Shown piece after piece: positions 12,707 to 30,070 of a stretch of 38,673 nucleotides of DNA. This DNA is from a virus. A model generated the notes under the pieces. That model worked only from the letters and a program-made list of their open reading frames with translations. It was not told where the DNA came from and ran no database searches. The first letter of the stretch is position 1. Every line of letters begins with the position of its first letter. The DNA lies in the IMG/VR virus record IMGVR_UViG_3300033182_001307, positions 1 to 38,673 of that record; one strand, written 5' to 3'. The position numbers were made by a program, and so were the translations under genes.

Positions 12707-13159
12707 TCAGGCGACAGTCTGAACGCTGAACGTGAGAGCGTAAGTCGCCGGGGCACCAGACGCAGCGTCACCCTCAGGCTCAGTCAGACCGACGAGGAGG
12801 CACATCGGGTACTTCCGGGTGCCCTGCGGGTTCTTGATGTCACAGTTGAACTCCTCGATCGTGATGTCGTAGTAGGCGCGACCCACCAGCTGCCGGGCAG
12901 CCTTCAGGAAATCGCCGTCAACATCCTTGTCGTAGTGACGGGTGATCGTGATGTCACCAATCTCAGCGGGAGCGCACAGCACCTCAGGGAACAGCTTGCC
13001 ACCGATGTAGATCTTCTCGACCGAAGCCGTGATTTCACCACCGGAAACCTGAGCGAAGTACTGGAAGTTGCCGTCGTTGCCCACCGCAGGCGGGGTCTCA
13101 ACGTTACCCGTCGATGACGGGTTGATGGAAGCAACGATCTGCCTCTGTGCAAGTTTCAT
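12707..13159 (-). CDS. Tail tube protein
   Basis: The 150-residue protein has the size and all-beta layout of myovirus tail tube proteins. It contains FQYFAQVSGGEITASVEKIYIGGKLFPEVLCAP (about 33-64), a 'ITITRHYDKDVDGDFLKAARQLVG' segment typical of tube subunits, and the end ATYALTFSVQTVA. It forms the inner tube of the contractile tail, polymerised on the baseplate within the sheath. A GAGGGAGC ribosome site precedes the ATG. The gene lies 12 bases after the sheath stop and ends at a terminator, so sheath and tube appear to form one highly expressed unit. Confidence 0.88.
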   Translation of the reverse strand: MKLAQRQIVASINPSSTGNVETPPAVGNDGNFQYFAQVSGGEITASVEKIYIGGKLFPEVLCAPAEIGDITITRHYDKDVDGDFLKAARQLVGRAYYDITIEEFNCDIKNPQGTRKYPMCLLVGLTEPEGDAASGAPATYALTFSVQTVA

Positions 13160-13171
13160 TTTTTAGCTCCC

Positions 13172-14632
13172 TCAGACTACCGATGCGGTGAGGTTGGACT
13201 TGGTGACATCGACCTGAATCTGGTCGCTCGTCGAGGAAACCCGGATCCCGACCTTCGCCTTCACCAAACCGCCAGCCAGCTGGCTCAGCGGGTTGATGGC
13301 GTCGTTGACCTGAACCGAGTATCCATAGTCGATGCGTCGACCGGTCGCGTCGAACGCCTCGTAGAGACCGCCCGCAATGCGGATGGGCTCAAGCATGTTG
13401 ACCAGACGGGCCTCGACCTTGGAGAAGAGCGAGGAACGCCCGTCGATCGGCGAGAAGATGAGGTCCTCCAGCACCGTCTTCGCACGGTCAACCACGTAGT
13501 TGAGCATTTCGCGCGAAGTCGTGAACCGGAAGTTGTCCTCATCGGACGACAAGGTGCGGGCGCCGTAGACGCGGATCCTGCCTCCGATAACTCGGAGAGC
13601 GTTGACCTTGTTGTCGTCGAGGTCGTCGCCGGTCTCCGCGTTAATCGCGGTGTACAGGCTGGTAATGAACTTCGATTCCGAGATCGAACCGGCGTAAGCG
13701 GACCACGATCCGACAGTGTTGTGGGCAACGGCTCGCTTAGCGGCGACGTATCCCTCGGGGGACATGCTGAGCGTGGTGCCCGACTCGTTGACCATCTTGA
13801 CCCACGGGTAGAACATGGCGCCGTATTCCGCGTTGTCCGCCGACGTAACAGCCGACGCTGAGGCCTTGATCTCGGTGGTGGTGTCATCCTCGAGGCCGGC
13901 CAGAAGCGCGAACCTGTTGGTGGATGAAGCGTGCTCGATTAGGGATTCGTGAATCGGGCCCATATCAGAGAAGCTGCCGTCGTTCGGAATCGCAACGGCT
14001 CCGGGTCCCAGATCGTCGGTGAAGTTGGTCCGGAGAGCACCGGTGTAGTCACCGTCAGTGATGTTGCCCTCATCGGCGTCACCAGCTGAAAAAGCTGAAC
14101 TGGCGAACGTGGCGAGGGTGTCAGCGCCAGCCACAGCGGTGGCGTAGTTCGCAGCAACGCTCGAAGCGTTGATCTTCTGGACGGCGGCTGCAACGGTGGC
14201 CACTTCTCCGGTCGAGTAGACCAGAGCGTCGCTCAGGTAGAAGCGGACGTTGTATCCGGCTCCGAGGGTAACGACCTCAGCCTTAAGGTTGGACGACCAC
14301 GATCCTTGACCGACAGCGGTAAGGGTCATTGCGGTTCCAGCGGTTCCGCCAGTGACATCCAGCGAACCGAAGGTTGCGCTCGGGCCGACAACGCGCGAAA
14401 CGTAAACCTGCGCGCCACCTTCCTCAAAGTAAGTCTGGACCTGCTGGTGGACCGCTCCGCTGGCGATGTAATCGCCATAGATGGTCTCGTAGTCGGCAAG
14501 GCTGCCGACCAGCTTGGCCTCGCCCTCAGGTCCACGTTCCGTGCGGCCAACCAAGAAGAAGGTGGCCGTCGGATTCTGGTTGACGGCAGACGGTCCTGAA
14601 CGAACCGAGGTGTTTACGACGATACCGGGCAT
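13172..14632 (-). CDS. Tail sheath protein
   Basis: The 486-residue protein opens MPGIVVNTSVRSGPSA and continues with FFLVGRTERGPEGEA (about 26-40), the usual N-terminal handshake region of contractile sheaths. A beta-sandwich middle part follows, and the C-terminal domain carries the conserved pattern NALRVIGGRIRVYGARTLSSD (about 343-363), FRFTTSREMLNYV (about 367-379) and a final region with AGGLVKAKVGIRVS. This is the standard myovirus sheath that contracts to drive the tube through the envelope. A GGAGGA ribosome site precedes ATG 14632. The immediate upstream region has a -10-like TATACT and a small hairpin. Confidence 0.95.
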   Translation of the reverse strand: MPGIVVNTSVRSGPSAVNQNPTATFFLVGRTERGPEGEAKLVGSLADYETIYGDYIASGAVHQQVQTYFEEGGAQVYVSRVVGPSATFGSLDVTGGTAGTAMTLTAVGQGSWSSNLKAEVVTLGAGYNVRFYLSDALVYSTGEVATVAAAVQKINASSVAANYATAVAGADTLATFASSAFSAGDADEGNITDGDYTGALRTNFTDDLGPGAVAIPNDGSFSDMGPIHESLIEHASSTNRFALLAGLEDDTTTEIKASASAVTSADNAEYGAMFYPWVKMVNESGTTLSMSPEGYVAAKRAVAHNTVGSWSAYAGSISESKFITSLYTAINAETGDDLDDNKVNALRVIGGRIRVYGARTLSSDEDNFRFTTSREMLNYVVDRAKTVLEDLIFSPIDGRSSLFSKVEARLVNMLEPIRIAGGLYEAFDATGRRIDYGYSVQVNDAINPLSQLAGGLVKAKVGIRVSSTSDQIQVDVTKSNLTASVV

Positions 14633-16510: not shown

Positions 16511-17581
16511 CTATGAGAAATCTGCGATTACTTCATCCCAGCGTTTAGCCATCACTCTGACATCAAGGTGTTCTTTCACCACCTCACGTTGCCGTTTTGC
16601 TTCCACGGCTCGCACGTTGCTGTCCAATAGATCAGTCAGGTGATTGGTCCATTCCTCTGGGGTGGTCGCCAGACGACCGATGTTGTACGTATCGAACAGC
16701 CGTCTGTATTCCCCAAGGTCTGATGCCACAAACGGCACATTCGCTGCTGCATATTCGATCGCCTTGATCCACGACTTCGCGTGGTTAAACGGAATATCGT
16801 TCAGTGGCGCGATACCAATGTCGAATTGGAACGACAGTTGCGAGTAAAGCGACGGGGGATGCATCGGAGTTTTCGTTACTTTTTGACGGTCGACACCAAC
16901 TTTGTCCGCAAACCATGTGGCCACATCAAGGTGTCCAGAATGATGAAGCCTCCATTTGTTGTTGTTGATGAATGGGGCTACAAGCTCTAGATCTCCAGAA
17001 CGGTGGCTTGTTGATCCAACCCATCCGACAATAGTTTTTTTCGGACGAGGGTGTCTCTTGCGGAACGAATCAACATCGACACCGTTTTCGACCCTGTACA
17101 CCTTGTCGATACCGAAATCATCCAGCATTCGTGCTTCAAGAAATGGCGTTGACACGGTGACCGCGTCAGACATTTGAATAATTCTTTTATAGTTATCAAT
17201 GTTCTCCTCGTCGTTGTGGTCAGGGTGGGTGAGCTTGTAAGCGTGATTGTCCTCGTGGAGTCCCCAGTACCAGTCATCAATGTCGTTAATCAGGGGAGGT
17301 CCGCCACTCCTAGTAGCAACTTTCTCGACAAGGTCGCGGAACATCAGTCGCTGCATGATGATGACGTCGCAGTCGTAATGGACCCGGTCATGCCAGTCCA
17401 TTACACCAAAGCCCCTCTGCGGGTGATGCAAAAGCAGGCCAGTCACAGACGCATGAGATAAATGACGTCGAACTTGCTGCAGGCGAACGTGGTTTGCTCC
17501 ACCCGGTACAGGTCCGTCAGGACCAGCCAATGAGCGTGACCAATCAGTGCTCGCTATGCCAATTTTAAGCTTTCGCGGCAT
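16511..17581 (-). CDS. Glycosyltransferase, GT-B fold (GT4-like)
   Basis: The 356-residue protein looks like a retaining GT4-type enzyme that moves a sugar from a nucleotide-sugar donor to an unknown acceptor. N-terminal features are a Rossmann strand KIGIASTDW and a GGANHVRLQQ loop (about 27-37). A central segment has VSTPFLEARML and YRVENGVDVDSFRKR (about 165-180), the usual hinge 'NGvD...f'. The C-terminal half has IVGWVGSTSHRSGDLELV and, near residue 275, KAIEYAAANVPFVASDLGEYR, the conserved donor-binding motif. GGAG lies 7 bases before the ATG but inside an inverted repeat. The acceptor could be phage DNA, virion protein or host wall glycan; position between the accessory operon and the neck genes does not decide. 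Confidence 0.85.
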   Translation of the reverse strand: MPRKLKIGIASTDWSRSLAGPDGPVPGGANHVRLQQVRRHLSHASVTGLLLHHPQRGFGVMDWHDRVHYDCDVIIMQRLMFRDLVEKVATRSGGPPLINDIDDWYWGLHEDNHAYKLTHPDHNDEENIDNYKRIIQMSDAVTVSTPFLEARMLDDFGIDKVYRVENGVDVDSFRKRHPRPKKTIVGWVGSTSHRSGDLELVAPFINNNKWRLHHSGHLDVATWFADKVGVDRQKVTKTPMHPPSLYSQLSFQFDIGIAPLNDIPFNHAKSWIKAIEYAAANVPFVASDLGEYRRLFDTYNIGRLATTPEEWTNHLTDLLDSNVRAVEAKRQREVVKEHLDVRVMAKRWDEVIADFS

Positions 17582-17583
17582 TT

Positions 17584-17607
17584 AGTTCTCCAGTGTCTCG
17601 GAGAACT
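17584..17607 (-). promoter_or_regulatory. Hairpin that can mask the glycosyltransferase ribosome site
   Basis: Perfect 8-base arms AGTTCTCC and GGAGAACT flank an 8-base loop. The 3' arm in the minus-strand RNA contains the GGAG that serves the ATG at 17581. When folded, the ribosome site would be paired. This could couple glycosyltransferase translation to upstream translation or to a ligand. The pairing is seen directly; the regulatory role is inferred. Confidence 0.5.
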
Positions 17608-17619
17608 TTATCAGGTCGT

Positions 17620-17886
17620 CTAGCCGTCAATGTCGGGAGCGGCTGGTCGCCGAGCTACCGGAATTCTGCCTCGAGGAAATCTCGCTGGAATAGGATCTCC
17701 GCCTCGCCCGCCACCCCCAAGAGCTCGAGGAAGAAGGTCGCGGACAGCACCTCGTGGGTTGGCTTCGGCGCCCACGGTGCGGCTTCCGGCGCCACGCAAA
17801 AATGTGGCGACAGCGCGACGCCACCATGCGGGTCGGGCCACGGTCTCTTCGCGTGGAGAGTCAGGGGGGAAAGTTGGACTTGGCAT
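17620..17886 (-). CDS. Doubtful 88-residue Arg/Pro-rich ORF
   Basis: This 342-base gap (17582-17923) has no certain gene. The best candidate is an 88-codon frame with a CCCGGAGACACC leader placing GGAG 6 bases before the ATG. The product is basic and rich in Gly, Arg and Pro (for example RALGGGGRGGDPIPARF), with no recognisable domain, and would be disordered. It sits 37 bases after the ParB-like stop and 38 bases before the glycosyltransferase start, so its spacing fits the operon. Overlapping open frames on both strands (high GC) make chance likely. The sequence looks more GC-rich than its neighbours. Confidence 0.35.
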   Translation of the reverse strand: MPSPTFPPDSPREETVARPAWWRRAVATFLRGAGSRTVGAEANPRGAVRDLLPRALGGGGRGGDPIPARFPRGRIPVARRPAAPDIDG

Positions 17887-17923
17887 GGTGTCTCCGGGAG
17901 CACACCAATAATACCACCACGTT

Positions 17924-18478
17924 TTAGCGGTCTGCGTTCGGTGGTCTTTCTATTGCGGGTCCTACATTTTCTGCCGACTCTGCCTCGACTGGAACCCATG
18001 CTCGAGAATATTTGTGGTCAGCAATATTTCTATGCTTGAGCAGTGTTCCGTCGAGCATAACGGCCAGCTCTTCCTCGGTCATTGCTAGTTTTTTTCGAAG
18101 ATTCCATTCGTCGTATCGCCGCGACAACGCTACGTTTTGTACGATCCGTGACACCTGCTTCGGTAAGCTGACACCCTTGGATCGGTTCATCCTGACGTGC
18201 ATGAAAGCAGCGTCGAGATCTGAACACTCGTGATATATCACTGGAATTTGTTTGCCCAGTGTTTTCTGCGCCTTTTTGGAGGCCCCAGCAATCTCCCACC
18301 TAATGTTGCCGTCAATAATCCGGTTCGTGCCTTCTTGCACAAGAATCGGTTGCAGCCATCCGTAGTCGGTTAGCGATCGGGCCAGCACCTCCAGATCAGG
18401 CTTCAGCAGGTAGGACGTGCGCCACGGGCCGGGCGTCAAATCGGTGGCATTCACCATGACAATCTGCTTCATCGTCAT
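17924..18478 (-). CDS. ParB-like nuclease-domain protein (IbrB-like)
   Basis: I take ATG 18478, because it overlaps the stop of the PP-loop gene as ATGA; the longer reading from 18625 runs inside that gene. The 184-residue product has a ParB/Srx-type N-terminal domain: YLLKPDLEVLARSLTDYGWLQPILVQ (about 22-47), IIDGNIRWEIA (about 54-64, the family's GNxR-type loop), and FMHVRMNRSKG (about 90-100). A helical part follows, with a short MTEEELAVMLDG segment. Such domains can act as nucleases, kinases or CTPases; no ParA partner is present. Pairing with an upstream PAPS-reductase-like gene matches the IbrA-IbrB arrangement known from enterobacteria. Activity is unknown. Confidence 0.8.
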   Translation of the reverse strand: MTMKQIVMVNATDLTPGPWRTSYLLKPDLEVLARSLTDYGWLQPILVQEGTNRIIDGNIRWEIAGASKKAQKTLGKQIPVIYHECSDLDAAFMHVRMNRSKGVSLPKQVSRIVQNVALSRRYDEWNLRKKLAMTEEELAVMLDGTLLKHRNIADHKYSRAWVPVEAESAENVGPAIERPPNADR

Positions 18479-19638
18479 CTCGTATCGTCGATACTGTCGT
18501 AGGCATCCAAGTTCGCCAACTCGGCCTCTTCTTTTTGCGCGATCGTGTACGCCCGAGTTTTTGGGCCCATCGGGTTTACCGCCATGATGTTGAACTCCTT
18601 CAACAGGATGTTCCTGATCAGCCAATGTATCGGGTAGGAGGCAGGATCCTTCGCCTGCTTCTTACGGAACTCTGCCGCGAACGACATGGCCCGCCTGTGC
18701 AGCCCGGGTGTCAGTACGTTTTCGTCGATGCAGAGCTTCACGCCACGCCAGCCCATCTTGGCGTACAAATCAATTTCTTTCTCGATGTCGAAGTACGCCC
18801 AAAGGCGACGCTGAGCATCAATTTGCGGAAAGCATTCAAAAAGCCGATCGTAAAAATCTGGCTCTGTCTGCACCACATCACCAATGCGCCTAATGGCTAC
18901 ACAGTGAAGCGGGATGCCGACCCGCGTATTGGATCCGGTGAGCGCAGCAAGGTCGTAGTACTCGCAGTATTTTGCTCCGTGTTCTTCGCTAACAAATTTC
19001 AACACATCGTCAGTAGTCCAGTCGTAGATCACTTTAGCGAAGCGTAAAGGAATCGACTTTTTCATCCTATAGGGGACGTTGATGTAGTTCTCGTGAAGCT
19101 TCTGAACACACGACCGGTATCTGATCATCGACTCGTTGGCGCGAATGCCCGTCAGGAACGCAACACGACCAGCCTTGCCCTGCATCGTGTAATAGTCGAT
19201 CGATTCAGGAATCGCCTGCTCTGGATCTAGGCCAAAATGTTCTGCTCTGATAGCCCATTCGGGGATGGGTCTAAATAAGCGTCCAACACGTTCGCGGCGC
19301 GGGTCCCAAAGTTGGATGTATTCACGTTGACCCAGTACCCACACTTCCTGACCTTGGGGTAGGCAGTACCACTCCATATCGACCCAGTCGTAGTTTCGCA
19401 CCTCGTTGAGGTATCGCTCGACCGCTGGGGAAAGCATTTCCTCATCGCGGAAAATAACTTTCACTGGTCCCAGTCCACGTTCCTCGTGTATCTCTTTCGC
19501 GAGATGCAGAACGGCGGTCGAATCTTTTCCACCAGAGAACTGGACGCACACCGTGTCAAACGTGTCATAGACGTGGCGCACCCGCTCGCGGGCAGCGTCC
19601 ACACACGAGATGTCGAGGAACATTCGTTGGCGTGTCAT
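18475..19638 (-). CDS. PAPS reductase-like PP-loop protein (IbrA-like)
   Basis: The 387-residue protein has the PP-loop ATP-binding motif SGGKDS (35-40), then a strand with VKVIFRDEEML, and LTGIRANESMIRYRSC (about 164-179), the G-x-R-x-x-E-S-x-x-R motif of the PAPS reductase/DndC group. It also has VIYDWTTDDVLKF (about 206-218) and a C-terminal region with GWRGVKLCIDENVL and a Trp-Leu-Ile-Arg-Asn helix, consistent with the extra domain of IbrA-type proteins. These enzymes adenylylate a substrate, often in sulfur transfer. It overlaps the HTH gene and the ParB-like gene by ATGA junctions. Whether it reduces PAPS, thiolates a nucleic acid or does something else cannot be read from sequence. Confidence 0.87.
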   Translation of the reverse strand: MTRQRMFLDISCVDAARERVRHVYDTFDTVCVQFSGGKDSTAVLHLAKEIHEERGLGPVKVIFRDEEMLSPAVERYLNEVRNYDWVDMEWYCLPQGQEVWVLGQREYIQLWDPRRERVGRLFRPIPEWAIRAEHFGLDPEQAIPESIDYYTMQGKAGRVAFLTGIRANESMIRYRSCVQKLHENYINVPYRMKKSIPLRFAKVIYDWTTDDVLKFVSEEHGAKYCEYYDLAALTGSNTRVGIPLHCVAIRRIGDVVQTEPDFYDRLFECFPQIDAQRRLWAYFDIEKEIDLYAKMGWRGVKLCIDENVLTPGLHRRAMSFAAEFRKKQAKDPASYPIHWLIRNILLKEFNIMAVNPMGPKTRAYTIAQKEEAELANLDAYDSIDDTR

Positions 19639-20210
19639 TTGGGCATCTGTCCGCTTCGCGTCGGGAACGGCCTCAACTTTTTCGGCATGTGTCGAAGCAG
19701 TTTGAAGTGTAGTTCCTCAAGCTTCTTCTGATTTTCGTACCTGATGTGTTTACCAAGAATCAATTTTTGATGCTGGCTTTTCTTGCCAAGCATCCGGTTG
19801 AGGTCGGTCAGCGTGTAGCCAGCCTCCATCATTTCTTCAACTAGGTGTCGGGAAAAAGTTGAGTCAACAAAATGCTTCGGTCCAAGATCATAATCCGTTA
19901 CAGATAGAATTATTGTTTCTGTCCTTGGCGTGACAAAGTTCTTTTTTCCACCCCTGATTTTCTGAATGTTGCGGTAGTCGATGCCGGTGACGTTCGCCAC
20001 GTGTGTCGCCCCAATGCCGCACGACTTCAAATGAAGAAGATGCTCGCGCGCCTTATCGGCTGGCACATATCTGGGTTCTTCGACCTCGAGGCCGGCTTCT
20101 ATTTTTCGCCGCACCCGTGCGCGCTCCCGGGAATACTCCCGGTGCGCGACGGTACACGGCTCACATCGGCAACCCTTCGAGTAGGTCGAATGCTTGCCGT
20201 GCGTTTTCAC
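19635..20210 (-). CDS. DNA-binding HTH protein with Cys leader
   Basis: The 191-residue protein starts at a GTG overlapping the deacetylase stop (GTGA). Residues 5-20 hold HGKHSTYSKGCRCEPC with C14, C16 and C19, followed by an Arg-rich helix. This 'HG...GCRCxxC' leader is frequent in actinobacteriophage proteins, as far as I remember, and may bind zinc. Residues about 50-85 look like a helix-turn-helix (HLLHLKSCGIGATHVANVTGI, then RNIQKIRGG), and a second HTH-like stretch (GYTLTDLNRMLGKK) lies near 130-145. The C-terminus is basic. It could regulate this operon; the target is unknown. Confidence 0.7.
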   Translation of the reverse strand: MKTHGKHSTYSKGCRCEPCTVAHREYSRERARVRRKIEAGLEVEEPRYVPADKAREHLLHLKSCGIGATHVANVTGIDYRNIQKIRGGKKNFVTPRTETIILSVTDYDLGPKHFVDSTFSRHLVEEMMEAGYTLTDLNRMLGKKSQHQKLILGKHIRYENQKKLEELHFKLLRHMPKKLRPFPTRSGQMPK

Positions 20211-21100
20211 GACACCGCAGATGCGGTAAGAGCAGGCGCAGTCTCGATGGTCGACATTTGCGTCAACGTGTCGATGTGAAGATCACGGATGTCGTCCATC
20301 GTGTTGGAATCCCACGTGTAGCCACCAGCCATCGTGACGATGACAGGCTTGCCCTGACGTTGGAAGAACTGCGCCATGAGGCGCTCGCGCGCGGCCAACT
20401 GGTTGGCCGTCACACCGCAGTTGATCGGATCAACGCCAGCGTTGTAGATGAAGACGTCGACATTCATCTCATCAAACTCGGCAAGATTGAGCGTGTCGAT
20501 GACGTTCTCGACGTAGTACTCGGGAGAACTCATCTTCTGGATGTCGTATCCATCGACGGGGACATACCGGTCGAATGCCGACACTGAGACGTCGATCTGG
20601 TAGGTCGTGTCGTGGTTGATCATCGAGTAGGTGCCGCCACCACAGTGAGCGTCAAGGTCGACAACGCAGGTTGTCAGTCCCTGAAGTTGGAGCCAGTGCG
20701 CGGCGAGTGCGATGCCGTTGAAGGTGCAGTACCCTGCGCCCTCGCCCCATCTGGCGTGATGCAGGCCCGACGAAAGCGTCGCGACAGCGCCGCCTCGGAG
20801 CGCCGCGGTTTTTGCGGCAGCGAGGCATCCCGCGTTGTGCGCGAGTGCCATGTCGAAGATGCTGGGGTCCCACTTGAGCCCGTTAGAACGGGCGAGATGC
20901 GGGTGGAAATTGTCCTTGACGGCGTAGACGTAGTCTTCGTCGTGAAGAACAACCAGTATGTCCTCGGTCTCCTCGTAGAAGTTCTCGGGTGACTGGATGT
21001 CGAAGCTGTCAGGAAGCCCTGACGCAATCGCTTGTGACTTGCGGTTGGTGTCGAAATCGTCGGCACCTTTGACATAGTCGTCGTTGTAAAACACAATCAT
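20207..21100 (-). CDS. Histone-deacetylase-like zinc amidohydrolase
   Basis: The 297-residue protein belongs to the arginase/deacetylase superfamily (bacterial acetylpolyamine amidohydrolase, acetoin utilisation AcuC and HDAC relatives). All key motifs are visible: tandem histidines in GLHHARWG (H114, H115), GYCTFNGIALAA (123-134), VVDLDAHCGGGT (D148, D150, H152), NAGVDP (D224) and MAGGY (Y261). D150, H152 and D224 would bind zinc, and H114/H115 and Y261 would complete catalysis. One change from the common form is HC in place of HH after the Asp-x-His. I chose ATG 21100 because an AAGGAGG site lies 5 bases upstream. It leads a four-gene overlapped operon. Possible substrates are acetylated polyamines, lysines or N-acyl sugars. 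Confidence 0.9.
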   Translation of the reverse strand: MIVFYNDDYVKGADDFDTNRKSQAIASGLPDSFDIQSPENFYEETEDILVVLHDEDYVYAVKDNFHPHLARSNGLKWDPSIFDMALAHNAGCLAAAKTAALRGGAVATLSSGLHHARWGEGAGYCTFNGIALAAHWLQLQGLTTCVVDLDAHCGGGTYSMINHDTTYQIDVSVSAFDRYVPVDGYDIQKMSSPEYYVENVIDTLNLAEFDEMNVDVFIYNAGVDPINCGVTANQLAARERLMAQFFQRQGKPVIVTMAGGYTWDSNTMDDIRDLHIDTLTQMSTIETAPALTASAVS

Positions 21101-21138
21101 ATTTACCTCCTTGGGGTAGTAGTTAGTTGTGCGATTAC

Positions 21139-21167
21139 ATTTTACCGGCAAAATTGCGGTTTGACAA
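21139..21167 (-). promoter_or_regulatory. Strong sigma70-like promoter of the deacetylase operon
   Basis: Minus strand TTGTCA (21162-21167) and TAAAAT (21139-21144) are separated by 17 bases. Each hexamer differs from consensus at one position. It lies in the only gap between the ParB-like gene and the deacetylase gene, about 40 bases before the ATG, followed by AAGGAGG. It is the best promoter in the window. Confidence 0.75.
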
Positions 21168-21169
21168 CC

Positions 21170-21943
21170 TCAGAAATCGGCGTGGGATTCGACGAAATCC
21201 ATCAGGCGCTCGGCCGTAGTGTTGCCGTCATGGCCCGGATCCGACCGGAGCCAACGAATGAAATCATACCAGCGTTTCTGCTGATCCGCACTGTCAAAAA
21301 CCAGCGTGTACTGGACGACAGCCTGTTTTGAGCCGGACTGCCCGATACTCGTGCTGCCTGTCGCGGCAACGCTCTTGGAGTCGACCTCACCGGTAGGAAC
21401 GATCCGTTCACCCTCTGGTGTGACCTCCCGCGTGATGGGCGGTTGCCCCCGTTCGTCAATCGGGATGATTACGGGCGGGATGTAGCCCAGTGGGTCGTCC
21501 GCAAGATCGTTGAGACGGTCGGCCTGCTCCCCGAGCGCGGCGAGTTCAAATTCGTCCCAGCCGAGACCTTCAAGAAGCTCAACATATTCGGCCGAGATGT
21601 GCTCGATGATCGCGTCAAGCGCCTCAGGTTCTGAATGGCCAAGCTCAGACGTTCTGTTATCCGCGAGCGCGAACGCGACAGCCTGTTGCTCGTCAACTTC
21701 GTACTGGACGGCGGCGATCTTGTCCCATCCCAAACGCTTCGCTGCCTCCAACTGGTGGTTGCCCGCGATGACTGTTGACGTACCATCGCCGTTCGGGCGC
21801 ACCACAATCGGGCGCACCTGCCCGAACTCTCGGTACGATGCCATAATTGCGTCGACATTCCCTTTACGTGGGTTGCCGTCTAGCGGCACCAGCGAGTCGA
21901 TGTCGACCGCAAGGGGCTCGAGTGTTGGATCGATACGGTTCAT
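21170..21943 (-). CDS. ParB/Srx-like nuclease-domain protein
   Basis: The 257-residue protein has a clear ParB N-terminal domain: VDIDSLVPLDGNPRKG (13-28), a helix with FGQVRPIVVRPNG, VIAGNHQLEAAKRLGW (about 58-73) and VAFALADNRTSELG (about 88-101). The rest contains an acidic helical region and DPLGYIPPVIIPIDERG. The C-terminal quarter (about 210-250, YTLVFDSADQQKRWYDFIRWLR) is a separate small domain. There is no ParA, so plasmid-style partition is unlikely. Phage ParB-like proteins of this type sit next to recombination genes and may cut or modify DNA. The start overlaps the upstream stop as ATGA. It is the second ParB-like protein within 4 kb. Confidence 0.85.
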   Translation of the reverse strand: MNRIDPTLEPLAVDIDSLVPLDGNPRKGNVDAIMASYREFGQVRPIVVRPNGDGTSTVIAGNHQLEAAKRLGWDKIAAVQYEVDEQQAVAFALADNRTSELGHSEPEALDAIIEHISAEYVELLEGLGWDEFELAALGEQADRLNDLADDPLGYIPPVIIPIDERGQPPITREVTPEGERIVPTGEVDSKSVAATGSTSIGQSGSKQAVVQYTLVFDSADQQKRWYDFIRWLRSDPGHDGNTTAERLMDFVESHADF

Positions 21944-22278
21944 GTTTGTGCCCTCACGTTTGCTGCGAGTGTTCGCAGGGCGTCGATGGAGGTTCGCAAC
22001 GAGGACAGCCTTTCTCGTTTTGACTTCACCAACGCCTCTGCGATCTTGTGGTTGTGGATCTGAATTTCCAGTTTGTAGTCAGCCCACGCTTCCCGTTCCC
22101 GGATAGAGCCCTTCGCGGAGAGATATTCCTTTGCCCACGACGCCTTGTAGTCGGCTTCTTTTTCTGCTGCGTCTACAGCGAGCGACTCAAACGTTTCTGT
22201 CTCATCTTCCAGCATCGAGGTGAGTCTGATGATCTCTTGTTCGATCTCAACCTGCGAGATCGGACGGGTTCTAGCCAC
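21940..22278 (-). CDS. Small coiled-coil protein of unknown function
   Basis: I take the GTG at 22278, because GGAGGA lies 6 bases upstream; the longer open frame from 22530 overlaps RuvC in another frame and is not expected to be used. The 112-residue product (MARTRPISQVEIEQEI start) is almost entirely helical with a charged heptad pattern (about 10-105) and no cysteines. Similar short helical proteins occur among early genes of actinobacteriophages, as I remember them; no function is assigned. It overlaps RuvC by 8 bases and the ParB-like gene by ATGA. Confidence 0.7.
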   Translation of the reverse strand: MARTRPISQVEIEQEIIRLTSMLEDETETFESLAVDAAEKEADYKASWAKEYLSAKGSIREREAWADYKLEIQIHNHKIAEALVKSKRERLSSLRTSIDALRTLAANVRAQT

Positions 22279-22795
22279 AGTATTCCTCCAGTTCTGACCA
22301 GTCGATCTTTTCGAGTGCGGCGAGGTTCGCGGCGGGCCAGTCGTGTCTCGCCCTGCCGAGGACGGCACGCCCCATTTCCTCAAGGATGTAGGCGTCGCAC
22401 CGGTCGTCTCCTCCGGCTCCGTCCCAAACAATCCCTGTTCTTGCCGATACCGCTGAAACAACCTCGTTTTTTCCTGCATTTCCTTTTCCTGTAGCAAATT
22501 TTGCGCGCACCGTCGGAGGCACCTCAACATAAGGGATGCCGAGATCGTGGAGGAGAAGTCTTATAACCCCGCCAAGTTCGCCGATGCTGTGCGCCTGACT
22601 GTTGCGGCTCGCGAACGAGTAGCCCTCGATCACGACTCCGGGCATATGGTTCGCTGCGACGTCAACTCGGAGTCTGGCACGGATGTCGTACAGCCGCTGA
22701 GCGCCCTTCGACTTCGCGGCGATCGTCCACGTTTTCTTGTCACAAGAGACACCGGTCGACGTAAGAGACAGGTCGAGCCCCATGACAGATCTCAT
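22271..22795 (-). CDS. RuvC-like Holliday junction resolvase
   Basis: The 174-residue protein has the RuvC RNase H-like fold and all four acidic residues: D8 in MGLDLSLTSTG, E57 in VVIEGYS, and D131/D134 in DDRCDAYILEEMG with the family's three-residue spacing. The segment SIGELGGVIRLLL is also typical, and VPPTVRAKFATGKGNAGKNE is the conserved middle loop with lysines. It would resolve branched recombination intermediates before packaging. Either ATG 22795 or ATG 22783 could be the start; no strong ribosome site decides. It is part of a run with Rad52-like, HNH and nuclease genes. Confidence 0.92.
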   Translation of the reverse strand: MRSVMGLDLSLTSTGVSCDKKTWTIAAKSKGAQRLYDIRARLRVDVAANHMPGVVIEGYSFASRNSQAHSIGELGGVIRLLLHDLGIPYVEVPPTVRAKFATGKGNAGKNEVVSAVSARTGIVWDGAGGDDRCDAYILEEMGRAVLGRARHDWPAANLAALEKIDWSELEEYCG

Positions 22796-22797
22796 TT

Positions 22798-23043
22798 TCA
22801 GCGGATCTCTCGTTTGCCGAGTTCCGTTGTCACGATCGTCCGCGGTAATCTGTCGCGCATGGTGATCCAGCCGCGATCTGCGAGTGTTTTTACAATGGCC
22901 ATCGCTGAGGACGGTGACGAAAGTCCGACGCTTTTTCCAATTTCTCTAACCGTAGGGGGATACCCGTTTTTAATGTAACTCGTCTCAATAAATTCGAGCG
23001 CCTTTAGTGCTGTTTTTTCGTTCTTCACGATGCTTTTATTCAT
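22798..23043 (-). CDS. LexA-type DNA-binding domain protein, no peptidase
   Basis: The 81-residue protein matches the LexA N-terminal winged helix: ALEFIETSYIKNGYPPTVREIGKSVGLSSPSSAMAIVKTLADRGWI (about 15-60). The C-terminal autoprotease domain is absent, so it would not respond to RecA by self-cleavage. It may act as a repressor of phage early genes or bind host SOS boxes. It overlaps the HNH gene by 8 bases (AATGAATAA) and precedes RuvC. The match is specific, but a general MarR-like wHTH is not excluded. Confidence 0.75.
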   Translation of the reverse strand: MNKSIVKNEKTALKALEFIETSYIKNGYPPTVREIGKSVGLSSPSSAMAIVKTLADRGWITMRDRLPRTIVTTELGKREIR

Positions 23044-24706: not shown

Positions 24707-25074
24707 TGGTCCCCGTGCGCTGAGGTGTCCCAGAGCACCGAGTAAAGACCATGTTCCGGACACGCATAAAGGAACTCCGTCATGCGGGCGCCCTGCCTCT
24801 TCAAGGCCGCGAACGGAAAACGCATTTCACGTGCCCGCGACGAAAAGTCATCGGAGCAACCCTCGCACGTCGCGTCACCAAACCTCGAACTCCACAGCGA
24901 CGACGTCATGATGCTGTCCCACTCGGAGTCAGTCAAATCAACCTCGTGTTCCTCGGCGACATGAAGCAGGTCGTCGAGCGCCTTGCGAGCGTTGTTGTAT
25001 GCGTTAGTTAGTTGATCGTTGACGATCAACTTGGAGTGATCCATAACGATGTCTGTGTGCTCGGAGCCTTTCAC
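24703..25074 (-). CDS. Hypothetical protein between annealing protein and nuclease
   Basis: The 123-residue protein starts at a GTG that overlaps the Rad52-like stop (GTGA), with AAGGAGG just upstream. It has a helical N-terminal half (AYNNARKALDDLLHVAEE, about 25-42) and a C-terminal half with a possible small zinc site: C70 and C73 in TCEGCSDD and C105 in YACPEHG. No family is recognised. Tight coupling to the annealing protein and the Cas4-like gene suggests a role in DNA recombination. Confidence 0.7.
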   Translation of the reverse strand: MKGSEHTDIVMDHSKLIVNDQLTNAYNNARKALDDLLHVAEEHEVDLTDSEWDSIMTSSLWSSRFGDATCEGCSDDFSSRAREMRFPFAALKRQGARMTEFLYACPEHGLYSVLWDTSAHGDQ

Positions 25075-25742
25075 TTCTCCTCCTTTGCCACGACGGTTCC
25101 GCCCATACGGATCGCGACAGCCTGAGTGGTCATCGCCATCAGAACCTCCATGGTCATCTCGCTTTTCTTCGGCACCGGCTTACCTTCGCCGTACTCGGCC
25201 CACCATGCGCGGAGTTCCTCGACCTGTTCGTCGGTCATCTCCTCACGGATCGACTTGAAGCGCTCGTACTGCTCGTCGAGTTCGGACAGCGGTTCCGGTT
25301 CGGCGTACTCGGCCATCTCCATCTCAATCGCGTCGATGTCGCGAGCGAGGTAGAGGCCGATGCCGAAGTGCTGTGCTGCCTTCTTCAAGGCGTCGGACAC
25401 GGCGCCCTTCATCTCGTCGCCGAGATCGACGATGTCGCCGTTCTTGGTGCGCTTGATCTTTTGACCGCCGATGCCGTCGTGACCGACCCAGCCGCCGCTC
25501 GTCTTATCGTCTCCGGCGATTCGTGCGCTGAGCGTCACCGCGGCCACGATGTAGTCGGGGTCAAGTTCGTCACGTTTGCAATATACGATCGTAGATGACC
25601 AGCCATCGACACCGAATACGCGGTTGAGGCGATTGATCACCTCGGAAACCGGGATGTAGGTGAGGCGGGTGCCACCCTTGTTGAGGGTGCGCTCCATCTC
25701 AGGGGGGAACGGCTCAGAGAGCCTGTTGTACATGTCTGACAT
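25071..25742 (-). CDS. Rad52-family single-strand annealing protein
   Basis: The 223-residue protein matches the Rad52/Sak family of phage recombinases: TYIPVSEVINRLNRVFGVDGWSS (about 28-50), a basic KTSGGWVGHDG segment with IKRTKNG, and DEMKGAVSDALKKAAQHFGIGLYLARD (about 108-134), the family hallmark. The C-terminal third is acidic with a WWAEYGEGKP piece. It would anneal single strands exposed by the nuclease at 23945 in homologous recombination. It overlaps the upstream gene as TGATG and the downstream gene as GTGA. Confidence 0.88.
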   Translation of the reverse strand: MSDMYNRLSEPFPPEMERTLNKGGTRLTYIPVSEVINRLNRVFGVDGWSSTIVYCKRDELDPDYIVAAVTLSARIAGDDKTSGGWVGHDGIGGQKIKRTKNGDIVDLGDEMKGAVSDALKKAAQHFGIGLYLARDIDAIEMEMAEYAEPEPLSELDEQYERFKSIREEMTDEQVEELRAWWAEYGEGKPVPKKSEMTMEVLMAMTTQAVAIRMGGTVVAKEEK

Positions 25743-26277: not shown

Positions 26278-27582
26278 CTAGAGGATGATAGCGGCCCGTT
26301 TCCGTTGTGGCAACCCGAGCCCGGTGAGGTGCGTGAAAGCACCGACGGCAGAGTCTACTTGGTCGTCGTGGTTCGCGGCTTCTGGAAAAGAAGAAAATTC
26401 GTCAAGCCACTCGGTGAGCCATGTTCCGCGAACAGTCCTCACGTTTCCGTTGGCGACCGCGGCGGCAAAGGGTCGCGCCCGCGTGATCTTATCGCCAGTG
26501 GCTCGGATGCCAGCAAAATCGTAGCCGGGGAGGACATACCGGGCGTATTGGTCAATAAGAGCTTTGCCCGACGAGCCGGGCTCTTGCTCCATCCGGATCG
26601 CCACGTGGTGTCCGTCTTCGTATGCGGTTTGAGCGATCAGATGTTCGACCTGCTCACCTCGCACACGCGCTTTTTTTACATCTAATATGTATGCGATTCC
26701 CTGATCGAAGAGCATCAGTGTGCCGACCGTCCAGTCTGGATCAGGATTCGATGCGGAGGGCTCGGTGGCGGCACAGTCCCAAAAACGAACGGCCCGAGCC
26801 ATATTGGTGACTTCCGGGATTTCGTGCTGGTCGAGCAGCACAAATGATTCGCGTTCGAACATGGTGCCGAGCGTTGTGGACCACCAGTCACCTTCTTCTA
26901 GCCGTCGCCGTTCGATGGGGTCAAGGGCTTGGAGCGACTGTCGATAGGACGCCGCGTCGATTCCGGGGTTGTCGGTAAGTTTTGAGGGGACAAAGATGCG
27001 GCCAGATTCTCGTCCTTCTACGATGAATCTTTGACGCACCCAGTTTGGCGCTGGGTTCGACGCTGCTCGCATCCGGAGAGGCACTTTCGCGAGTGGACCT
27101 GACGCCGGGCGGCGCAGACGGGAGAACAGATACCGGTAATCCGACTCGCGGATTTCGGTTACCTCGTCCATGCCGATGAATTGGAATTCCGCGCCCTTGT
27201 AGCGCAGGTAGTCCTGAGCGTTGTTGAGGTATCCGAATGAGATTCGTGCCCCTGATGGGAACATTGCGGTGTAGTTGTTGGAGTTCCAGCGAATATCGTC
27301 GTAGGAGCCCATCCACGAAACGAAACGGTCCATGATGGCGCCGGGGAGGGCGAGGTCGGCGTAGGTGCGACGGAAAAGAATGGCGCTGTAGTTCGGGATG
27401 TCGATGTATTGGAGAGCGGCCATCAGGAGCGCTGAGCTTTTCCCGCCTCCCGCTGCGCCTCCGAAAAGAGCCTCGAGCGCGTTTGTTCGGAGAAAAACTT
27501 TCTGCGTGACAGATGGCTCTTCAGGGCAAAATTGCGGTTCCTTGGGCTCTAGGTATTCAAGAACTTTTTGCCAGTCGGCCAT
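26278..27582 (-). CDS. terL: Terminase large subunit
   Basis: The 434-residue protein has the packaging ATPase and nuclease domains. GGAAGGGKS (41-49) is Walker A, FQFIGMDE (133-140) Walker B, and AASNP (173-177) the coupling motif. The nuclease has D269 in RFWDCAATE, E332 in RMEQEPGS and D406/D407 in HDDQVDSAVGAF. It pumps DNA into the procapsid through the portal and cuts it. I take ATG 27582 because GGAG lies 8 bases before it; the frame from 27654 adds 24 residues without a ribosome site. No terminase small subunit is recognised next to it, and it is oriented opposite to the portal gene. Confidence 0.95.
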   Translation of the reverse strand: MADWQKVLEYLEPKEPQFCPEEPSVTQKVFLRTNALEALFGGAAGGGKSSALLMAALQYIDIPNYSAILFRRTYADLALPGAIMDRFVSWMGSYDDIRWNSNNYTAMFPSGARISFGYLNNAQDYLRYKGAEFQFIGMDEVTEIRESDYRYLFSRLRRPASGPLAKVPLRMRAASNPAPNWVRQRFIVEGRESGRIFVPSKLTDNPGIDAASYRQSLQALDPIERRRLEEGDWWSTTLGTMFERESFVLLDQHEIPEVTNMARAVRFWDCAATEPSASNPDPDWTVGTLMLFDQGIAYILDVKKARVRGEQVEHLIAQTAYEDGHHVAIRMEQEPGSSGKALIDQYARYVLPGYDFAGIRATGDKITRARPFAAAVANGNVRTVRGTWLTEWLDEFSSFPEAANHDDQVDSAVGAFTHLTGLGLPQRKRAAIIL

Positions 27583-27662
27583 CGTCGCTCTCCGTCTGCT
27601 CTTACGTAGGTTAGTATAAGAATGAAACGACTCGGCAGAGGTTCTCATCGCCAAGGAGAAAA
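27583..27662. promoter_or_regulatory. Divergent regulatory gap between terL and head genes
   Basis: This 80-base gap separates the minus-strand terminase from the plus-strand head operon. On the minus strand it holds TATACT (27613-27618) preceded by TTTCATTC; on the plus strand a nearby AAGGAG (27653-27658) serves the small membrane gene. A very similar TTTTCATT-TATACT lies on the plus strand at 27702-27715, inside the small gene. No good -35 is seen for either, so they may be phage-specific promoter elements. Confidence 0.4.
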
Positions 27663-27817: not shown

Positions 27818-30070
27818 ATGGCATGGAACTCTAGGGACAGCAAAGATGCCCGAGCCTCTGAATCAAAAGCGGCGCGCATCGGGCCGGGCTCCCCTGTTGC
27901 TTTAAGTCCGACTCTTGCTGGCCGCGCCTACCGTGATGCATGGGATATTGAGCGCGCATACCGCGAGGGCATGCAGCGTGTTGTTTGGGTGAATCGCTGT
28001 ATCGACGCTATTGCCGGCAATCAAGCCCGCTTGCCTGTGATTCTGCGAAAAGATAATAGCCCTAATGGCGAAATTGTAGAGCGCAAACATCCCCTACTGG
28101 ATATTTTGAATTCAAAAAGCAACGAGGGCGAGAATTCTTTCATTTTCCGATACCGACTGTCGAGTCAGCTACTTATGTCGACTCGTGGCGCGTTCATCGA
28201 AAAGGTTTATGGTCGAGACGGGCGGATAATCGCCCTCAACCTGCTACCCCCGCAGCACACATCGCCGATCCCAGACCCGAGAAAGTTTGTCGCCGGATTC
28301 CAAGTTGACATGCCGTTTGGCGAAAAAGTAATTCTTCCACCAGACAGAGTTCTGTGGCTTCGACGCCCGCACCCCCTCGATCCATACCTGTCGTTGACTC
28401 CGATGGAATCAGCAGGTATCGCTATTGAAATCGAAAACTTGGCGCGCGCCTACAACCGCAACTTCTTGCTAAATGATGGTCGGCCCGGCGGCCTTCTCGT
28501 AATCCGAGGGGAAATTGACGAGGAGGACAAGGACGAATTGCGCAGCAGGTTCCGGGGGAACCTGAACAGGGCTGGGTCTGTCGGTGTCATTTCTTCGGAT
28601 GACGGCGCTGACTTTGTGGACACGGCTTCAAATCCACGTGATGCCGCATACGTGCAGATGCGTCAGCTCACAAAAGAAGAAATTTTGGCTGCTTTCGGAG
28701 TGCCCGAGTCGATCATCGGCAACGCTTCGGGCCGAACATTCTCGAACGCGTCCGAGGAAGCGCGGGTGTTCTGGTTTGAAACGATGTTGCCGCATCTCGA
28801 GCCGCTCGCTCGCGGTTTGGACGAGCTAGACGAGAAATTGTACGTCGATTTTGATACCACCTCGGTACCAATTCTTATTATCGCCAAGCAGGAGCGTCAG
28901 CGCTACCGGATGGAAGAGTTCCAGCAAGGTTTGATCAGCGCGAACGAGTACCGCGATTCGACAGGCCGCAAAAAGGTCGAGTCGGAAATTGCCGATCAGA
29001 TGCTTGCGAACCCGAACCTCGTACCTATTGCGAATACGGAGAAGCCTTTCGCTATCGAGGATCAGGCTCCTGTCGCAGAGGCGGGTGGAGCTGTTCCGCT
29101 TCCGGGCGAGCCGGGTGCCGCTCCGGGTGGCGCTCCGGGTGGCGAACTGCCGGGCGAGGCCGGGCCGCTTCCGGGCGCGCCAGAAGGCGGGCCTGCTCTG
29201 GCCGCGGGCGCTCCCGCCCCCGTTGACGCTGACGCAGCGCCTGCTGTCGCCATCGAGCCTCTCCCCGAAGGGCAGTTGTCAGGTCAGCCTGTCGACATCG
29301 AGACCAAGTCTGGCAAAGTTATTGACGACTGGGAAGAGAAGGCGGATCGCCTGTCTGACCGGTGGGCCAATATCGTGGAGCGCTCCTTGGAGCGTTATTT
29401 CGAGCGCCAGCAGCGGGTGATTATTGAAAAATCGTTGGGCGCCAAGTCAAGGAAGGCTCTTTCCTCTGGCAAATTCGACCCCGAGTTCATCTTCGATTCC
29501 GAGGCGTGGAATCGTCAACTTGAGGACGACCTAAGGCCGCTGTTCGCTGCGATGGCGGCTGAAGCTGCCGATGAGGTGGCTGTGAAATCCGGGATGGATG
29601 CGACTCCGGACGAGGACCAGTTGAACGAGTATCTCGACGCACAGATTCAACGTGCCCAAAAAGTTAACGAGACGACAAAGGAAGAAATTGTTGCTGCGTT
29701 GACCGTTGCTGCCTCCATGCAGGAGGAAGAGGAAGACCGTTCTAGTCTGCTTCGGGCCGCATTGGTTGCCGTGTTTGCGAACCTTCTTGGGGCTCGGCGT
29801 AGGCGGATGGCTGAGCACGAGTCGCAGTCGGCGCTGAATGCCGGCACATATTTCGGCAGTATGGCGGTGGGGGCTCCAACAAAGACGTGGAAGACGCGTA
29901 AGGACACGAAGGTCCGGGCTGCCCACAAGTCTTTGGAGGGCAGGACTGTTAATATTGATGAGGGCTTCATGGGTGACGAGCAGGTTTTGCGGTTCCCCGG
30001 CGATCCTTTGGCGCCTCCGTCTCTGACGATGAATTGTCGTTGCCGCCTAAAGTTTGACGATTTTCTGTAA
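27818..30070 (+). CDS. Portal protein fused to MuF-like minor head domain
   Basis: The 750-residue protein combines two normally separate head proteins. Residues about 30-400 match HK97-type portals: WVNRCIDAIAGNQARLPV (57-74), LLPPQHTSPIPD (142-153), LDPYLSLTPMESAGIAIE (187-204) and AAFGVPESIIGNASGRTFSNASEEA (291-315). A Pro/Gly/Ala-rich linker (about 423-480) follows. The C-terminal part (500-750) is helical and ends with WKTRKDTKVRAAHKSLEG (about 688-705) and MNCRCRLKFDDF, the MuF/gp7 minor capsid signature. The portal ring is the DNA channel, and the MuF part usually is an ejected or inner-head protein. The start is 2 bases after the small membrane gene. Confidence 0.93.
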   Translation: MAWNSRDSKDARASESKAARIGPGSPVALSPTLAGRAYRDAWDIERAYREGMQRVVWVNRCIDAIAGNQARLPVILRKDNSPNGEIVERKHPLLDILNSKSNEGENSFIFRYRLSSQLLMSTRGAFIEKVYGRDGRIIALNLLPPQHTSPIPDPRKFVAGFQVDMPFGEKVILPPDRVLWLRRPHPLDPYLSLTPMESAGIAIEIENLARAYNRNFLLNDGRPGGLLVIRGEIDEEDKDELRSRFRGNLNRAGSVGVISSDDGADFVDTASNPRDAAYVQMRQLTKEEILAAFGVPESIIGNASGRTFSNASEEARVFWFETMLPHLEPLARGLDELDEKLYVDFDTTSVPILIIAKQERQRYRMEEFQQGLISANEYRDSTGRKKVESEIADQMLANPNLVPIANTEKPFAIEDQAPVAEAGGAVPLPGEPGAAPGGAPGGELPGEAGPLPGAPEGGPALAAGAPAPVDADAAPAVAIEPLPEGQLSGQPVDIETKSGKVIDDWEEKADRLSDRWANIVERSLERYFERQQRVIIEKSLGAKSRKALSSGKFDPEFIFDSEAWNRQLEDDLRPLFAAMAAEAADEVAVKSGMDATPDEDQLNEYLDAQIQRAQKVNETTKEEIVAALTVAASMQEEEEDRSSLLRAALVAVFANLLGARRRRMAEHESQSALNAGTYFGSMAVGAPTKTWKTRKDTKVRAAHKSLEGRTVNIDEGFMGDEQVLRFPGDPLAPPSLTMNCRCRLKFDDFL

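Follow-up and report, generated by a model that had tools for sequence, protein, structure and literature searches.

What process, if any, is shared by a histone deacetylase (HDAC)-like enzyme and an IbrA/IbrB-like pair whose genes are joined end to end in a phage genome? The question is raised by the IMG/VR virus record IMGVR_UViG_3300033182_001307, a 38.7-kb contig analyzed over its whole length (38,673 nucleotides, hereafter the window). Its minus strand encodes an HDAC-fold zinc deacylase resembling HDAC11 and cluster 5 enzymes (20207-21100, ATG at 21100), a putative DNA-binding helix-turn-helix (HTH) protein (19635-20210), the PP-loop protein IbrA (18475-19638), and its ParB/Srx-fold partner IbrB (17924-18478), with a 4-base overlap between each gene and the next. 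Coordinates and family matches agree with the chain of deacetylase-like, HTH, PP-loop, and ParB-like genes described in the original prediction, which took the overlaps to imply fixed stoichiometry and a joint process. The reading we favor, with reasonable confidence, is that of a mosaic accessory operon in which a promoter and HDAC gene were inserted into a ParB-IbrA-IbrB core, the core itself acting through adenylyl transfer, presumably on DNA. As judged from the layout, the four genes would be carried on one transcript from one promoter, as had been proposed, but they probably do not form one pathway.

The core begins with a gene that the original prediction overlooked, a ParB-like protein of family phrog_723 (21170-21943, minus strand; 4.1e-40) lying 69 nt upstream of the HDAC gene. 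It belongs to the conserved cassette and precedes ibrA in nearly every IbrB-bearing relative whose sequence extends far enough. Between it and the HDAC gene, a sigma70-type promoter, TTGTCA-17-TAAAAT (21139-21167, minus strand), is followed by a Shine-Dalgarno sequence, AAGGAGGT (21105-21112, minus strand), ahead of the HDAC start codon. The promoter had been called near consensus and matches 10 of 12 consensus positions; the region holds 5 promoter-like matches of such quality where 3.9 are expected, which is no enrichment. Comparison with relatives is more informative. A TTGNNN-17-TANNAT element stands at the same place, just past the ParB stop codon, in all 5 HDAC-bearing relatives examined, one of which (L004) has a perfect TTGACA-17-TATAAT, and with the window included the promoter accompanies HDAC in 6 of 6 loci. 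Mean pairwise identity among the HDAC-bearing loci is 0.64 for the -35 element and 0.80 for the -10 element versus 0.38 for the spacer, whose 17-nt length is kept while its sequence is not. Of the HDAC-less relatives, 7 were examined; they showed no such promoter element and a gap of approximately 0 to 12 nt. Since the element occurs in HDAC-bearing loci and was not seen in HDAC-less ones, comparison of the sequences supports a promoter that travels with the HDAC gene. A moron-like cassette, consisting of the promoter and a gene for an HDAC11-type zinc deacylase, would then have entered the gap between ParB and IbrA, an insertion that the comparison supports, and its promoter would drive the genes behind it by read-through.

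The order ParB-(HDAC)-(HTH)-IbrA-IbrB-(small open reading frame)-glycosyltransferase is kept across the lineage of the window, with the bracketed genes optional. HDAC occurs without HTH (L003 and L004), HTH without HDAC (L005, L012, L013, L015, and L068), and some loci have neither (L010, L014, and L019-L021). In the IbrA tree, HDAC appears in three groups within an unresolved region and HTH recurs at separate places. Conservation of the neighborhood and of the overlaps had been put forward as a check on the joint-process claim; local order is indeed kept in close relatives, but the overlaps mostly are not. Only the HTH/ibrA spacing is -4 in every intact pair, while HDAC and the next gene are spaced by -4, -4, -1, -1, and +11, and ibrA and ibrB by -14 to +38. 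Such overlaps are the usual mark of translational coupling, from which no firm stoichiometry can be read, and with spacings that vary among relatives the claim of a fixed one falls.

Association between HDAC and IbrA was assessed in relatives sampled by two marker genes, terminase and ribonucleotide reductase, chosen for neither HDAC nor IbrA. Among terminase-matched relatives, 27 of 34 carried IbrA and 4 of 34 carried HDAC; 3 of those 4 also had IbrA, and the fourth record ends inside HDAC (Fisher p=1). The ribonucleotide reductase set gave 13 of 18 with IbrA and 4 of 18 with HDAC, 3 of them with IbrA (Fisher p=1), and since the pair counts share ancestry these tests are rough. By both marker sets there is no HDAC-IbrA association beyond the lineage baseline. 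IbrA is near-core in this lineage and HDAC is a rare extra. With HDAC and HTH coming and going independently, HDAC unlinked to IbrA in other phages, and no association detected, the argument from overlaps to a joint process does not hold, and HDAC is probably independent of IbrAB.

The AlphaFold model of the HDAC (pLDDT 95; Hist_deacetyl E=7e-20) is nearest to Leptospira HDAC11 with dodecenoic acid (9gz5; Z 34.2, root mean square deviation 2.1, 273 residues aligned), then to Vibrio cholerae HdaH (9gkv and 9gky, the latter with decanoic acid; Z 34.1 and 33.9), followed by a lysine deacylase (5zmp, Z 30.6) and acetylpolyamine amidohydrolase (APAH; Z 30.4). Foldseek and sequence search concur with this ranking, with HDAC11-type enzymes at 1.7e-19 versus 1.7e-5 for APAH. 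Zinc ligands and catalytic residues are invariant (the Asp-His-Asp, His-His dyad, and Tyr formed by D150, H152, D224, H114, H115, and Y261), and the window enzyme shares fold, catalytic residues, and an xxGxHH motif with HdaH, its nearest relative by sequence, and with Leptospira HDAC11, which is together with HdaH the nearest by structure. It differs from both in being phage-borne, with 19-23% identity, a Leu gatekeeper, and a DAHCGGGT motif.

These motifs bear on the substrate. Enzymes with RPPxHH have been described as robust deacetylases of lysine and polyamines, and those with GGGxHH as removing longer acyl groups (Graf et al. 2024, PMC11532494); in the same work, replacement of RPPxHH goes along with an open foot pocket and deacylation of long chains, and the polyamine deacetylases of bacteria fall in cluster 4. 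The window HDAC has AGGY and, in place of RPPxHH, a GGGxHH-type SSGLHH, and RPPxHH is absent from it and from every phage relative with a readable motif. Just FD is retained of the HPFD loop. Described HDAC11 gatekeepers are Phe in clade B and Thr in clade A, and clade A enzymes were inactive on the peptides tested (PMC13325672). In phage HDACs the gatekeeper is Leu (window) or Met (some relatives). Because it is neither Phe nor Thr, the window HDAC is by sequence a branch related to, but outside, both described HDAC11 clades, and it may act on something other than a peptide. The predicted deacylase would probably prefer medium or long acyl chains.

The pattern search, at its sensitivity, found HDAC relatives in at least 184 viral contigs, most of them without adjoining IbrA. 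Rhodococcus phage E3 encodes a 38-40% identical HDAC with the same motifs (gp202) in a genome that, unlike that of the window phage, lacks IbrA. Chromosomal homologs occur in Rhodococcus, Tomitella, Mycobacterium, and others. In Mycobacterium, Tomitella, and Rhodococcus the gene was seen directly behind a vWA-like gene ('FLLDRSGSM'; L330, L332, and L354), possibly a bacterial operon, and this neighbor in the three actinobacteria gave no functional clue. A second phage HDAC clade (DGDGHHGDGT and QAGADA; L147, L149, L151, L156, and L162) was also seen, in phages carrying what appear by eye to be adenylosuccinate-synthetase-like and PolA-like genes; these are possibly 2-aminoadenine phages. Elsewhere, a ThyX-like gene (again by eye) lies just upstream of HDAC (L104, L105, and L107) and a ribonucleotide reductase-like gene lies approximately 3 kb away (L098, L100, and L103). 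A literature search for phage histone deacetylase returned no study of a phage HDAC, and the word 'phage' is absent from both of two published surveys of classical deacylases; the phage HDAC11-like family appears new to the literature searched.

The IbrA/IbrB assignment of the original prediction stands, as the two proteins fall in the same PHROG families as Escherichia coli YbdN/YbdM (phrog_2302, 1.2e-71, and phrog_2159, 6.3e-24). The chromosomal E. coli genes overlap as well, but they lie in another context and their products are only 26-31% identical to the phage pair over the aligned parts. No DUF3440 match at E<=0.05 was found in the window IbrA, although the protein covers nearly the full length of phrog_2302; because no match to this C-terminal domain, named for YbdN, was detected, the window protein is best placed by sequence as a phage branch of the IbrA family and not as YbdN itself. 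It had been described as a PAPS-reductase-like PP-loop protein. The PP-loop and the PF01507 fold are borne out by the Pfam match (PAPS_reduct, 1e-10) and the predicted structure (pLDDT 85), but identity as a PAPS reductase is not, since no cysteine is conserved across the window IbrA, Salgado, Phlyer, and YbdN. The motifs SGGKDS, D-E-E, G-I/V-R-A-x-E-S, and D-W are invariant or nearly so, and the SGGKDS ATP loop together with the lack of a conserved catalytic C-terminal cysteine rules out a genuine PAPS reductase (CysH). The nearest fold is the PAPS domain of human FAD synthase (Z 16.8, root mean square deviation 3.7, 183 aligned), followed by FMN adenylyltransferase and APS reductase (Z of approximately 14.8), in a comparison that barely covers the C-terminal helical part (approximately 270-387). 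Motifs and model together suggest that 'PAPS reductase' is a misnomer and that IbrA is a predicted ATP-using, adenylyltransferase-like enzyme; no IbrA biochemistry was found in the literature searched.

IbrB (ParB_N, 9.6e-5) has conserved IIDGxxR, NRxxG, and YSxAW motifs. All 27 large records that carry IbrA also have IbrB, the one record without IbrA lacks it, and in three records (G044, G050, and G057) IbrB lies tens of kb from IbrA. In another record (G097:C1:22927-25023, locus L321), IbrA is matched as two pieces (model 1-99 and 92-376) within one 701-codon frame, which suggests an intein or large insertion.

The core is not new. IbrA/IbrB are already annotated in Phlyer and Streptococcus phage CHPC1062, and cassettes with the same families in the same order as the ParB-IbrA-IbrB of the window occur in mycobacteriophage Phlyer, Arthrobacter phage Salgado, Bacillus phage 031MP004, and prophi79-1 (family tests were made with phrog_2302 and phrog_2159 on Phlyer and Salgado, and with phrog_723 on Salgado, gp5). 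Unlike the window, these four lack HDAC. The claim that no described phage system has this gene set is therefore right for the HDAC addition but not for the ParB-IbrA-IbrB module, which is annotated in Phlyer, Salgado, and others; the addition of HDAC to the cassette is what is new. The cassette adjoins terminase in Phlyer, Salgado, and prophi79-1, and includes a methyltransferase in Salgado, 031MP004, and prophi79-1. More distant cassettes read ParB(s)-IbrA-[GNAT or S-adenosylmethionine methyltransferase]-[HNH-like]-IbrB-terminase, or close variants, with the GNAT identity backed by Pfam, while Hendrix has glycosyltransferase-methyltransferase-acetyltransferase-adenylyltransferase. Because distant IbrA cassettes often hold a GNAT or methyltransferase gene, these swappable group-transfer enzymes beside packaging genes suggest a nucleic-acid modification pathway. 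Five loci (L170, L173, L174, L203, and L207) were seen with a GNAT gene near ibrA and ibrB, close to terminase, and most of them have an HNH-like gene. The GNATs of distant cassettes gave no profile match to Mu Mom, and no phrog_1249 GNAT was found in the window record or in 22 lineage and HDAC-phage records; a Mom-like GNAT was rejected on this lack of detectable Mom similarity and of such a GNAT in the window lineage.

For the mosaic operon we envision that the IbrA PP-loop would activate a substrate with ATP or transfer adenylate from it, and that the ParB-fold IbrB would position the activated substrate on DNA or a nucleoside triphosphate, most likely on DNA or DNA-bound machinery, with tailoring enzymes encoded alongside that would be swapped from lineage to lineage. 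The HDAC would separately hydrolyze an N-acyl bond, probably of medium or long chain, on an amine substrate. Several observations weigh against this reading. In ten phages with HDACs of phage clade A, IbrA is encoded at another site of the same genome, consistent with a loose link, though we attribute it to how often those lineages have IbrA in any case; a shared role could also underlie co-transcription and the -4 overlap between HTH and ibrA; the Leu gatekeeper in SSGLHH fits neither HDAC11 clade and leaves chain preference uncertain; and the majority of the relative records are fragments. The HDAC could instead be a tailoring enzyme of an IbrAB DNA or nucleotide modification, trimming an N-acyl group in the slot held elsewhere by GNAT or methyltransferase. 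Its insertion directly upstream of HTH-ibrA with coupled reading frames, the transferases of related cassettes, and the ten unlinked phages with both genes all speak for such a role, which we nevertheless consider unlikely given the absence of association beyond the lineage baseline, the lack of phrog_1249 GNATs noted above, and the presence of HDAC in phages without IbrA (E3) and in bacterial chromosomes. It seems to us improbable that the substrate of the deacylase is an N-acylated nucleobase or nucleotide from the IbrA/IbrB pathway and that the enzyme replaces the acyltransferase in a DNA-modification core whose acyl-, methyl-, or deacyl-tailoring enzymes are interchangeable.

A similarly improbable account makes the HDAC an APAH that frees polyamines for genome packaging. 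The HDAC fold, the alignment of APAH structures at Z of approximately 30, and viral APAHs proven in Imitervirales (PMC9992855) lend it some credit, but the RPP motif tied to deacetylase activity (PMC11532494) is missing from the window and readable phage relatives. Together with the lower rank of APAH by sequence and structure, this rules out a polyamine deacetylase as the likeliest reading. For IbrAB, a doubtful but possible alternative to DNA modification is a pair of transcription co-activators working on phage or host genes, as the title of Sandt et al. 2002, cited in PMC10434257, indicates for E. coli IbrAB and the eib genes of prophages. A ParB-like partner and the CHPC1062 annotation 'co-activator of prophage gene expression' would fit, whereas strict conservation of the PP-loop and of further active-site residues implies enzymatic chemistry, and the cassettes pair IbrAB with transferases and terminase instead of regulators. 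We regard as very unlikely a phosphorothioate or other sulfur-based modification of DNA resembling DndC/SspD. IbrA does have weak DndC and BrxP matches, but no Dnd protein was found among the scanned neighbors, the conserved cysteine is lacking, and the DndC score of 20.6 is so far under the 290.4-bit cut-off that Dnd-type phosphorothioation is ruled out. DndC and SspD structures were not among the fold matches listed for IbrA, which carries no weight for exclusion.

The HTH gene is present as described, but its label is weak, with the best match to phrog_1590, a family of unknown function whose protein here has a conserved N-terminal GCRCxxC motif. A glycosyltransferase (16511-17581, minus strand; phrog_7162, 3.7e-36) does follow as a same-lineage neighbor, but it starts 342 nt beyond ibrB with a small open reading frame between them (17620-17886, minus strand). 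This frame (MP.P..PD...RPAWWRRA...LRG), also overlooked by the original prediction, is kept with its RPAWWRRA motif in most relatives examined, and a search of cultured phages gave no match. Tail and packaging genes, among them tail tube (12707-13159), tail sheath (13172-14632), terminase (26278-27654), and portal (27818-30070), identify the source as a contractile-tail phage, which also encodes an Erf-like annealing protein (25071-25742). A stand-alone LexA-type DNA-binding domain (22798-23043, minus strand; E=1.6e-13) was noted near a RuvC-like gene (22271-22795). The host is likely an actinobacterium, because relatives carry WhiB-like genes (named by eye) and the hosts of the closest cultured matches are Rhodococcus, Arthrobacter, and Mycobacterium. 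Each scan retained the best 80 loci, and the IbrA-bearing IMG/VR relatives are the best 80 of at least 598.

These results place IbrA/IbrB in phages of several bacterial phyla, near-universally in some lineages, in a predicted setting of cassettes with interchangeable transferases beside terminase. They replace the 'PAPS reductase' label with a prediction that can be tested, namely an enzyme that uses ATP, resembles adenylyltransferases, and depends on a ParB-fold partner. They also point to a phage family of HDAC11-like deacylases, spread over at least 184 viral contigs, whose motif argues against the polyamine role that would otherwise be assumed.

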